Shown here: piece by piece, positions 27,576-31,700 of the stretch
How positions within the stretch are numbered: position 1 is the first letter of the stretch
Layout of the letters: each line of letters begins with the position of its first letter
Assembly (NCBI RefSeq): GCF_022758295.1
Contig: NZ_JALDWJ010000003.1
Coordinates: 124,001-188,000, forward strand
Length of the DNA stretch: 64,000 bases
From: Lysobacter sp. CFH 32150
GTDB lineage: Bacteria > Pseudomonadota > Gammaproteobacteria > Xanthomonadales > Xanthomonadaceae
Direction of reading: 5' to 3'
Notes under the pieces: model-generated
Told to the model about the DNA's origin: nothing
Databases searched by the model: none
The model's input: the letters and a program-made list of their open reading frames with translations, nothing else
Program-made: the position numbers and the translations under genes

Positions 27576-30500
27576 ATGATCGTCCTCGAGGGCCAATCGG
27601 CCCTGTCGCCGTTCCGCCGCGAGCGGCTCGAAACCCGCTTGCGGGCTGTTTCTCCCGAGTTGCGCATCACTGGCGCCTGGTTCACCTACTGGGTGGAGCC
27701 GGAGCCGGGTGCGCGTCCCGATGGCACGACGTTGCAGCGCATCCTGCAGGCGTCCGACGCCGCGCAGCCGCTCGCCGCGAGCGCAGTTTCGCGCTACGTG
27801 CTGCCGCGGCTGGGCACGATCTCGCCCTGGGCCAGCAAGGCCACCGAGCTGCTGCATGGCGCCGGCTTGCCGGTAAAGCGCGTCGAGCGCGGCACCCGCA
27901 TCGACCTGGCGGGTTGGCCGCAGGACCCGGCAACGCAGACCGCGGTCGCGAAGCTGCTGCACGACCCGATGACCCAATCGCTGTTGGCAGCCCGCGACGG
28001 CGCCGCCGCGCTGTTCACCACGCCGGCGCGCGGTGTCCTCGAACGCATTCCGCTGCCGCAGCTGGAAGCCGCCAACGCGCGCCTCGGCCTCGCCCTGGCC
28101 GATGACGAGATCGAGTACCTGCGCGACCGCTACACCGAACTCGGTCGCGATCCGCACGACGTCGAATTGATGATGTTCGCGCAGGCGAATTCCGAACACT
28201 GCCGGCACAAGATCTTCAACGCGTCGTGGACCATCGACGGGCGCGAGCAGTCGACGTCGCTGTTCAAGATGATCAAGCACACCCACGCGCAGACGCCGGA
28301 ACACACGCTGTCGGCCTATAGCGACAATGCTGCGGTGGTGGAAGGCTATGCAGCACGTCGCTTCCGTCCGGATGCGGTCACGCACGAATACCGTGCCGAA
28401 GCCGAGACGCCGAGTGCGTTCTGCATCAAGGTCGAGACCCATAACCACCCGACCGCGATCGCGCCGTTCCCGGGCGCATCCACCGGTGCCGGCGGCGAGA
28501 TCCGCGACGAAGGCGCGACCGGCCGCGGCGGCCGTCCGAAAGCCGGGCTGTGCGGCTTCAGCGTCTCGCACCTGCGCATTCCGACGCTGCCACAGCCGTG
28601 GGAAAGACAGCGCGCGCTGAATCCCCGCATGGCGCCGGCGCTGGAAATCATGCTCGACGGTCCGCTCGGCGCGGCGGCGTTCAACAACGAATTCGGTCGT
28701 CCCAACCTCAACGGTTATTTCCGCAGCTTCGAACTCAATGAAGGCGACGCACTCGCGCGCGCCTACGACAAGCCGATCATGCTCGCCGGCGGCCTCGGCG
28801 CCGTCGATCGACCGCTGGTCGAGAAGAAGCTGCTCTCCGCGGGCGATGCGGTGATCGTGCTCGGTGGCCCGGCGATGCTGATCGGCCTCGGCGGCGGTGC
28901 GGCCAGCTCGGTCGCTTCCGGCGACAGCGCGGAAGACCTCGATTTCGCTTCCGTGCAGCGCGACAACCCGGAAATGGAGCGGCGTGCGCAGGAAGTGATC
29001 GACCGCTGCGTCGCGCTGGCCGAACGCAATCCGATTTTGTCGGTGCACGACGTCGGCGCCGGCGGCTTGTCGAATGCGATTCCCGAGTTGCTGCACGACT
29101 CCGGCGTCGGCGGCGTGATCGATCTCGACCGGGTCCCCAGCGACGATCCTTCGTTGTCGCCGATGCAGCTGTGGTGCAACGAATCGCAGGAACGCTACGT
29201 GCTCGGTCTGCCGCAGGACCGCGTCGGTGAATTCGCCGCGATCTGTTTACGCGAACGTTGTCCGTTCGCGGTGGTGGGCACGGCGACGGCGGAAGAGCGC
29301 CTGGTCGTCGGCTATGGCGCGACGATGGAAAGCGTCTACGGCGGCGACGCTGCTCTTTCCCTTCTCCCCCCGGGAGAAGGTGCCCGTAGGGCGGATGAGG
29401 GCACGCAGCACCTCAATGTCACCGCTTCGCCGAACCCTCACCCCAACCCGCACCCCGGCCCAAGTGCTCAGCACTTGGGCGTTCACGAGCGCGCGGATCA
29501 GTGGTCCGCAAGCGCGCTCGCTCACCCCGCGGGGAGAGGGGCTCAAAGCTTCGCCATCGATTTGCCGATGGACGTGCTGTTCGGCAAGCCGCCGAAAATG
29601 CACCGCGACACCTCGCATCCGCCGGCACCGCGCTGGCCGGAACTCGCCACCGCCGCGCTCGATCTGCGCCAGGCCGGCCTGCGCGTGCTCGCGCATCCAA
29701 CCGTGGCGGCGAAATCCTTCCTCATCACCATCGGCGATCGCACCGTCGGTGGTTTGACCGCTCGCGACCAGATGGTCGGCCCCTGGCAGCTCCCCGTTGC
29801 CGATTGCGCGATCACGCTGTCCGACTTCAACGGCTACGTCGGCGAAGCGATGGCGATCGGCGAACGCACGCCGCTCGCACTGCTCGACGCCGCCGCCGCC
29901 GCGCGCATGGCAGTAGGCGAGGCGATCACCAACCTCTGCGCCGCACCGGTCGAGACCCTGCACCGGATCAAGCTGTCGGCGAACTGGATGGCCGCCGCCG
30001 GCCACGCCGGCGAAGACGCACGCCTGTTCGATGCGGTGAAAGCTGTGGGCATGGAACTGTGCCCGGAACTCGACCTCAGCATCCCGGTCGGCAAGGACTC
30101 GTTGTCGATGCAGGCGCAATGGTCGACGGACGGCGTGGCGCAGAAATCGGTGTCGCCGGTGTCGCTCATCGTCACCGCCTTCGCACCGGTGGTCGACACG
30201 CGCGCGCAACTGACGCCGCTGCTGGCGCGCGACACCGATAGCGAGCTGTGGCTAATCGGCCTGGGTGCCGGCAAGCAGCGTCTCGGCGGCTCGATCCTGG
30301 CGCAATGCCATCCCGAAGCGGCTGGCAACAGCGCGCTACCCGCATTCGCTGGCGACGTGCCCGACCTCGACGATCCGCAACGTCTGCGCGCGTTCTTCGA
30401 ACTGATCCGCGACGCCCGCGAAGCCGGTTTGTTGCGCGCCTACCACGACCGTTCCGACGGCGGCGCGTTTGCAGCGATGTGCGAGATGGCCTTCGCTTCG

Positions 30501-31700
30501 CACCTCGGTCTCGACATCAGCCTCGATGGCTGGGGCGAGGATCGCAGTGACGACGTGTATCGCACCCTGTTCAACGAAGAGCTCGGCGCGGTAGTGCAGA
30601 TCACCGCCGAGGATCGCGCCGAATTCGCCGACCTGGTCGCGAGCCACGGCCTGATCGATTGCGCGCAACGCATCGCCAGGCCGACCACGGCGCCGACGAT
30701 TCGCGTGCTCGACGGTGGCGACACCCTGGTCGAGTGGCGTTGGGAAGAGCTGTTCGATGCGTGGTGGTCGGTGACCCATGCAATGCAGAAGCTGCGCGAC
30801 AACCCCGAAGGCGCTGATGAGGAGCGTGCCGCGGCGCGCGACTTCAACGCTCCCGGACTGAAGCCGAAGCTCACGTTCGACGCCAACGATGATATTGCCG
30901 CGCCGTACATCAACACCGGCGTGCGTCCGAAGGTGGCGATCCTGCGCGAGCAGGGCGTCAACAGCCAGGTCGAAACCGCGTTCGCGTTCGACCGCGCCGG
31001 CTTCGATGCTTTCGACGTGCACATGAGCGACCTGATCAGCGGTCGCTTCACCCTCGACCAGTTCAAGGGCATCGTCGCCTGCGGTGGCTTCAGTTACGGC
31101 GACGTGCTCGGTGCCGGCCGCGGCTGGGCGACTTCCATCCTCGAACGCAGCGCGTTGCGCGATGCCTTCGCCACGTTCTTCAACCGCGACGACAGCTTCG
31201 CGCTCGGTGTCTGCAACGGCTGCCAGATGATGTCGCAGCTCAAGACGCTGATTCCCGGGGCCGAGCACTGGCCGCAGTTCCTGCGCAACCGCAGCGAGCA
31301 GTACGAAGGGCGCCTGGCGCTACTGGAAGTCTTCGAATCGCCGTCGCTGTTCCTGCAAGGCATGGCCGGCTCGCGCATCCCGGTCGCCGTCGCGCACGGC
31401 GAAGGCCGCGCCTCTTTCGATGATGCTGATGACCAGGCCAGGGCCACCATCGCCCTGCGCTACATCAACGGCGATGGCAGCCTCGCGAGCAGTTACCCGG
31501 CCAACCCGAACGGCTCCACCGCCGCCATCGCAGGACTTACCTCACGCGACGGTCGCACCACCATCCTGATGCCGCACCCGGAGCGCACGCTCCGCGCCGC
31601 CAACTTCAGCTGGTCGCCACGCGAGTGGCAGGGCCCGCTGTCATCGGGCGATTCGCCGTGGCAGCGCATGTTCCGCAATGCCCGGGCGTGGGTGGGGTAA
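27576..31700 (+). CDS. purL: Phosphoribosylformylglycinamidine synthase
   Basis: This large single-chain FGAM synthase of purine synthesis has 1374 residues against 1295 in E. coli. The synthase domains carry [37 protein letters not shown] and GSILAQC. The C-terminal glutaminase has VCNGCQMM with the catalytic Cys, VAHGEGR and MPHPERT. Residues about 594-656 (after ESVYGGDAA and before [13 protein letters not shown]) are low-complexity and are encoded by a palindromic repeat inserted in frame. All recognised catalytic parts lie outside the insertion, so the enzyme is probably active. Confidence 0.95.
29355..29543 (+). repeat. Composite palindromic repeat inserted in frame within purL
   Basis: The segment holds three hairpins: CCTTCTCCC/GGGAGAAGG around 29360-29380, CCCAAGTGCT/AGCACTTGGG at 29459-29479, and a long GAGCGCGCGGA arm pair at 29487-29519. 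It also carries GTGCCCGTAGGGCGGATGAG and CCCTCACCCC, hallmarks of a widespread intergenic repeat of Xanthomonadales, and ends with CGGGGAGAGGGGCT. It keeps the reading frame and adds about 60 residues rich in Pro, His, Ala and Gly. Confidence 0.82.

Follow-up and report, generated by a model that had tools for sequence, protein, structure and literature searches.

The palindromic elements of Rickettsia (RPEs) are described as spread over many genes, with a length given as ~150 bp in an excerpt of PMC10969869 and with one guanylate kinase that, according to an excerpt of PMC2229807, is translated and active while bearing such an element. Similarly, intragenic GTAG/CGTC REPs are portrayed in an excerpt of PMC3733652 as small palindromes in ORFs, suggested to lie in linkers or loops, and the same excerpt places different REPs at about one site in recB of X. 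campestris and X. oryzae. MITEs (ERIC, Yersinia, and Correia elements) are characterized in excerpts of PMC2229807 and PMC10969869 as short and non-autonomous, with terminal inverted arms and an occasional fusion to ORFs. For the Xanthomonas GGGAATC quadruplex repeat, an excerpt of PMC4692102 puts the intragenic share at 11% (Xcc) and 7% (Xac); neither "purL" nor "in-frame" occurs in the main text of that paper. In-frame intragenic repeats are already known from RPEs and from REPs, including those in recB of Xanthomonas; new here are other repeat families that are nested and recur at one loop. Among the top matches in the open-licence literature (without supplements), no earlier account was found of the two elements described below, A and C, or of repeated insertion into purL at one site.

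In the window, meaning the whole 64,000-nt stretch of DNA that was analyzed, purL carries an in-frame insert of nested palindromic repeats; copies are dispersed, the insert is absent in some relatives, several repeats recur at the same loop, and other conserved genes are struck likewise. The sequence-only reading had likened the insert to RPEs as something that works alike in a different repeat family, and the analogy fits when the systems are compared by description, not by sequence. Like an RPE, the window repeat is palindromic, dispersed, and in frame inside a conserved protein gene, and over several genomes such inserts occupy many genes (purL, metH, putA, uvrC, and genes for a Mo oxidoreductase, an Fe-S subunit, an E2, and a glycosyltransferase). 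Unlike RPEs, the repeats belong to another host order, and several of them repeatedly strike one loop and nest.

Host gene and structure of the insert

The insert (~residues 594-656 of PurL) sits between two Pfam domains, AIRS_C (residues 422-579) and the PurM_N-like domain (713-871). A single palindromic repeat, in frame within purL, had been proposed from the sequence; the frame is indeed open across the segment, which is palindromic, and an inverted-repeat search recovers its hairpins (29360-29380, 29458-29480, and 29486-29520, the second perfect over 11 bp), but the segment consists of two nested elements instead of one (Table 1). E. coli PurL is, presumably, 79 residues shorter than the window protein. 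In a phmmer alignment with Salmonella PurL (4r7g), residues 2-577 and 660-1374 are aligned, and the Salmonella protein has 9 chain residues at the loop where the window PurL has the insert; 1t3t gives the same best range. Folded as RNA, the 189-nt insert reaches -98.4 kcal/mol versus -75.9 (sd 4.4) for shuffled sequences, and 0/200 shuffles are as good. Allowing up to three mismatches, the window contains a single occurrence of the motif CCCGTAGGGCGGATGAGG, and an Rfam search of 29200-29700 gave no match at E<=1.

Table 1. Positions of the host gene, the insert, and its component modules in the window
Feature	Positions	Strand	Basis
purL (FGAR amidotransferase), 1374 aa, host gene	27576..31700	+	ORF; Pfam FGAR-AT_N, linker, AIRS_C, PurM_N-like, GATase_5; PDB relatives 1t3t, 4r7g
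Insert in frame in purL: composite palindromic element A, whose right arm contains the nested element C	29355..29543	+	Own-genome matches; absent from short-loop PurL of relatives; RNA fold z -5.07
Element A, left module: hairpin CCTTCTCCC/GGGAGAAGG (29360-29380), hairpin GCCCGTAGGGC (29382-29392), GGATGAGGG; reads as 15 protein letters	29355..29402	+	Own-genome copies; inverted-repeat search
Element A, right module, first part: CCCTCACCCCAACCC, broken by element C	29435..29449	+	Uninterrupted CCCTCACCCCAACCCCTCTCCC in copies L007, L012, L015
Element C: two hairpins (29458-29480, 29486-29520), ends CTCACCCC; reads as 23 protein letters	29452..29528	+	Covariance model R1
Element A, right end: GCGGGGAGAGGGGCT, the arm that base-pairs with the left end	29529..29543	+	Inverted repeat I1, 29359-29374 / 29526-29541

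In general, element A consists of a left module, with the CCTTCTCCC/GGGAGAAGG hairpin, a GCCCGNAGGGC hairpin, and GGATGAGGG, and of a right module running from CCCTCACCCCAACCCCTCTCCC to GGGAGAGGGGCT; the short string CTCACCCC is common to A and C. Covariance model R1 was built from 15 copies of element C (13 purL loops and 2 other own-genome sites), in whose alignment 12 of the 22 base pairs show double-sided compensatory changes; it matches the window copy at G000:C9:153452-153528 with E 7.7e-14, this copy being among the 15 building sequences. The thought that the insert is an artefact of assembly or annotation draws on the own genome being a 17-contig draft; it is scarcely tenable, as in-frame inserts also occur in independently assembled genomes of other species, some of them named, and the coding score continues through both flanks.

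Copies in the own genome

Further genomic copies had been predicted, and the own genome yielded 14 left arms of A (purL included) and 10 copies of C. The underlying search gave 58 matches to the repeat at E<=10, many of them short and weak, and in 14 (with purL) the left arm is retained over 24 nt or more. Under a stricter pattern, 12 of the 14 left modules were recovered, with the right module starting 19-98 nt further on in 12/12. By the covariance model, element C has at least 10 copies in the own genome and at least 5-29 in nine other genomes, these counts being lower bounds (150 candidates scored per genome). A second A arm holding C lies at C7:458 kb.

Element A is mostly intergenic. A codon-score scan of own-genome loci, covering 30 fetched of the 58 repeat matches and 6 of the 10 C copies, found coding sequence spanning the element only at purL (L001, L017, and L309, which are one place), L028 being a 20-nt chance match; no conserved gene other than purL is interrupted at the loci scored. 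In a separate locus, L021 (G000:C11, ~16.8-17.0 kb), the frame of mrdA (PBP2-like; 3-1685) extends across an A copy in reverse orientation to a stop codon that overlaps, as ATGA, the following ORF, whose beginning resembles rodA; the codon score ended before the element. The reversed copy is probably a C-terminal tail of mrdA and the second protein-coding A copy of this genome. Set against the breadth of RPEs, the own genome thus offers only purL and probably also the mrdA tail.

Comparison with REPs, MITEs, and heptamer repeats

By eye, element A ends in CTTTCCC...GGGGCT and element C in CCCC...CTCACCCC. A and C differ from the GTAG/CGTC REPs, which are stem-loops of 20-40 bp tagged at one end, in showing no GTAG/CGTC end tag (again by eye), in being longer, and in having several hairpins; the GTAG of the window A copy lies in a hairpin loop, and GAAG stands there in 7 of the 13 other own-genome copies. 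Y1 transposases are present in 10/10 genomes searched, and 0/29 of their loci (Y1_Tnp) have an A motif or a C match within ~1.5 kb; this lack of RAYT association sets A and C apart from REPs, and REP/RAYT was rejected as their family. At one such locus, L439 (G000:C8, ~119 kb), an inverted pair of GTAGGGTGGGC..GCCCACC palindromes lies ~1.2 kb from the Y1 transposase gene; these palindromes are REP-like and unlike A and C. As regards recurrence at one site, the recB REPs of Xanthomonas, as far as the excerpted source goes, form a direct precedent for purL.

The terminal inverted repeats of the window insert, with 16-nt arms that are 88% complementary, are MITE-like. Neither a target duplication nor a matching transposase could be shown for A or C, the loops being divergent and the transposase search directed at Y1: in 13 loop pairs aligned for junctions, no exact empty site or target duplication is readable, since the purL loop itself diverges fast. 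The heptamer inserts (H) found in purL and metH of relatives match the GGGAATC quadruplex repeat as given in the excerpt of PMC4692102, several as inverted pairs; the window insert received no H label and is not a heptamer repeat.

The purL loop among relatives

Of 227 sampled purL loci, 208 yielded the loop, and the 19 that yielded none were dropped; loop length is a multiple of three in 208/208, and 191 distinct loops remained after duplicates were removed. A labelled repeat is found in 50 of these 191, a sample leaning to near relatives because L228-L287 were chosen among the listed rows for their closeness to the own genome. By kinship, the labels fall in 46/146 rows from Lysobacteraceae, 4/15 other kept rows, and 0/30 set-aside rows (i.e., 4/45 others), the last having been set aside by hand as distant when their short loops, all of 17 or 19 aa, were already known; they comprise 16 rows belonging to different families within the order and 14 named loci, of which L186 is titled Lysobacteraceae. 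A one-per-genus sample has labels in 14/35 relatives (own genome excluded). The sequence-only reading depended on distant relatives lacking a similar insert, and rows from other families of the order are unlabelled throughout (16/16 set-aside and 5/5 kept). Its expectation that close relatives would lack the insert holds for some of them and fails for others, which carry the same or a different insert.

The labels, assigned by peptide and DNA regular expressions and then inspected by eye, are A in 13 loops, C in 14, heptamers H in 20, D in 5, P in 3, and W in 1, with two in some rows; the nested C of G007, found by hairpin search, is absent from its label, the H part of the L123 label may be chance, and the unlabelled ("none") rows include long unclassified loops (L087, L089, L143, and L275) and heptamer-like loops (L158 and L281). 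As repeats at the purL loop, A, C, and the GGGAATC heptamers are well supported. As a dispersed repeat, D is weakly supported because so few matches lie outside purL: none in the own genome at E<=0.01, one partial match each in the D-bearing genomes G236 and G183 (55 and 56 nt, ~80%), and none in G105.

Near sisters differ at this site. G020 has A and G089 has C; G296 has C and its near sisters G275 and G196 have none, as is also the case for G255 beside G309 and G405; G014 and G264 have A, and G213 and G252 have none; G031 has A, G148 has the same A with C nested in it, and G095 has heptamers. A, C, and heptamers occur together in the loop of G007. On a quick PurL tree of 159 rows with the loop left out (LG+G4, SH-aLRT only; two further rows dropped for short flanks), the fewest changes are 10 for A, 13 for C, 4 for D, and 14 for H, with 40 for all labels together, and these are counts of changes in which gains and losses are not separable.

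Such a distribution bears on the idea of a single ancestral insertion that has since disappeared or decayed in most lineages, or that has been exchanged by purL recombination. Common descent probably explains part of the sharing (Luteimonas gilva, G031, and G148, which have A in common; G014 and G264; G003 and Lysobacter defluvii), and the short loops with a terminal HP may represent scars. However, A begins at different residues, either after GYG/GHGA or after VESVYG, the presence of different repeats means that the loop does not record one event, and A alone takes at least 10 changes on the tree, gain and loss being indistinguishable there; a single ancestral origin is accordingly quite unlikely, and inheritance of one insertion with losses as the sole cause was rejected on the tree change counts.

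Several further loci were observed in passing. The longest loop, of 122 aa, belongs to Xanthomonas massiliensis purL (L123, 4379-4744) and holds several in-frame tandem C-type units. A second PurL loop (residue ~855, after SMQAQW) carries heptamer-type inserts of 26-40 aa in G001, G006, G016, and G018. In G022 (L082), a lone 31-aa insert of no recognized family lies at residue ~116, near the N-terminal domain, and purL of G010 (L070) matches in pieces that fall in more than one open frame, which may reflect a frameshift or an error in the sequence.

Inserts in other genes

A codon-score scan of 87 loci, several of them overlapping and not a random sample because L325-L330 were fetched for their long frames, found coding across the element in 15: 11 in purL (7 genomes), 1 chance match, and 3 in other genes, namely metH (G024), an Fe-S subunit (G031), and uvrC with C (G296). 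When 29 of 30 fetched A loci from 10 genomes were scanned, 8 were flagged, comprising purL twice, a glycosyltransferase ORF twice, and once each a molybdopterin oxidoreductase, an E2 acyltransferase, metH, and putA. Besides metH, the hosts of in-frame A outside purL are the Fe-S subunit, the Mo oxidoreductase, and putA in G031, the E2 acyltransferase in G004, and the glycosyltransferase at L354. A Pfam search with 20 long ORFs that cover repeat copies gave no match at 1e-5 for 14 of them; the remaining 6 have domains, but the repeat falls outside these. At G031:C1 2090-2091 kb (L327, L356), neighbouring genes for the molybdopterin oxidoreductase and the Fe-S protein hold one in-frame A each, in opposite orientations. 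The notion of purL as the only gene hit was rejected given the inserts in metH, putA, uvrC, the Fe-S subunit, and others.

Among 31 MetH sequences, repeats at one loop are clear in six (A in the query, G024; heptamers in G001, G004, G006, and G016; a P-like insert in G019) and unclear in one more (G007). In 31 UvrC sequences, the sole clear insert is C in the query, G296; four others at the same site, 12-58 aa long, are unclassified and perhaps represent repeats that are old or of an unknown kind. Counted one per genus among G000-G021, purL is labelled in 12/22, metH is clearly hit at its one loop in 5/21, and uvrC in 0/22; purL is the most hit of these three genes and not the sole target, and because metH and uvrC were both chosen for holding an insert and are only two controls, they are too few to rank genes.

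These counts, the presence of several repeats at the purL loop, and the nesting of C at about one place in the right arm of A (purL of G000, G148, and G007, and the own-genome C7 copy) would agree with a loop that is favoured for insertion itself, through a preferred target site or because earlier elements leave behind a DNA structure that draws in later ones, and is not merely tolerant. Yet the metH loop is struck too, uvrC has its four inserts at one site, the start points of A vary, and survivorship by itself predicts clustering at tolerant loops, so that a favoured loop appears unlikely.

Reading frame, selection, and predicted structure

Where the left module of A is clear in purL (12 inserts), the element has one orientation and frame in 12/12, and 3-4 of its six readings are open in 9/12. 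The reading used has the fewest large hydrophobic residues among the open ones in 6 of 7 inserts tested, but the lowest mean hydropathy in only 2 of 7. Outside purL, the same reading is used in metH, putA, the Fe-S subunit, and the glycosyltransferase, and the element is reversed in the Mo oxidoreductase and E2. Part of this agreement in frame could stem from common ancestry and from landing at a set position.

In 10/11 insert pairs, dN is higher in the insert than in the flanks. The insert dN/dS is at least 0.4 in seven pairs (L091/L119, L063/L142, L076/L155, L076/L156, L156/L179, L155/L179, and L118/L201), of which the Xanthomonas pairs are non-independent and some, e.g., L118/L201, may compare separate insertion events; in L091/L119, the insert has dN 0.217 and dS 0.146, and the flanks have dN 0.044-0.063 and dS 0.42-0.50. 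The ratio is below 0.2 in four pairs, namely L273/L130 (dN 0.07, dS 0.52), L091/L270 (dN 0.06, dS 0.34), and two with very little data, L074/L240 (3 changes in all) and L069/L247 (11 codons).

An AlphaFold2 model of PurL residues 225-1010 (29 sequences) has a mean pLDDT of 66 and, among PDB structures, most closely matches FGAR amidotransferase of Salmonella (TM 0.69 by query). Fragment residues 374-431 (PurL 598-655) show pLDDT <50 and no secondary structure, other parts being low too. The model, which is not a strong one, supports a disordered loop for the insert residues.

A useful insert, whether as a linker, as a ribosome-slowing mRNA hairpin between the PurL halves, or as a regulatory extension, would accord with the domain-boundary position, the strongly structured RNA (z -5.07), and the four pairs of low dN/dS. 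It is nevertheless very unlikely, as close sisters have no insert or a different one, seven of the eleven pairs have a dN/dS of at least 0.4, and the metH insert of G024 falls inside a Pfam domain and not at a boundary.

Proposed explanation and significance

Palindromic elements that spread intergenically and persist within genes at disordered loops, in a stop-free frame and as nearly neutral filler, very probably account for the locus. Element A would have landed in the purL loop that joins the AIRS_C (B1) half of the synthetase to its PurM_N-like (A2) half, and a second structured repeat, C, would have come to sit in the right arm of A. Because A and C are stop-free and jointly of the right length, PurL would gain ~63 extra residues, predicted to be disordered. 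Both elements would be non-autonomous and spread as selfish DNA; most insertions elsewhere in genes would be purged, and those in flexible loops would persist as near-neutral filler, with no benefit to PurL required.

Lysobacteraceae are mostly free-living bacteria. In-frame palindromic inserts are best known in Rickettsia, and here several repeats do likewise in another family, with near sisters that differ at one core-enzyme site; questions about small repeats therefore become testable, such as by what means they spread when no transposase is known for them, whether genes merely tolerate or also attract them, and how new disordered protein segments originate. For annotators and modellers, the locus is a caution that the insert residues are not PurL proper. 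More tentatively, and on balance doubtfully, the B1-A2 linker of PurL together with one MetH loop may be a true landing pad in Lysobacterales, one that at least three and probably four palindromic families entered repeatedly, nesting in and replacing each other, with A always in one frame where it is read in purL. If so, a core purine enzyme would serve as a record of the activity of small non-autonomous elements.
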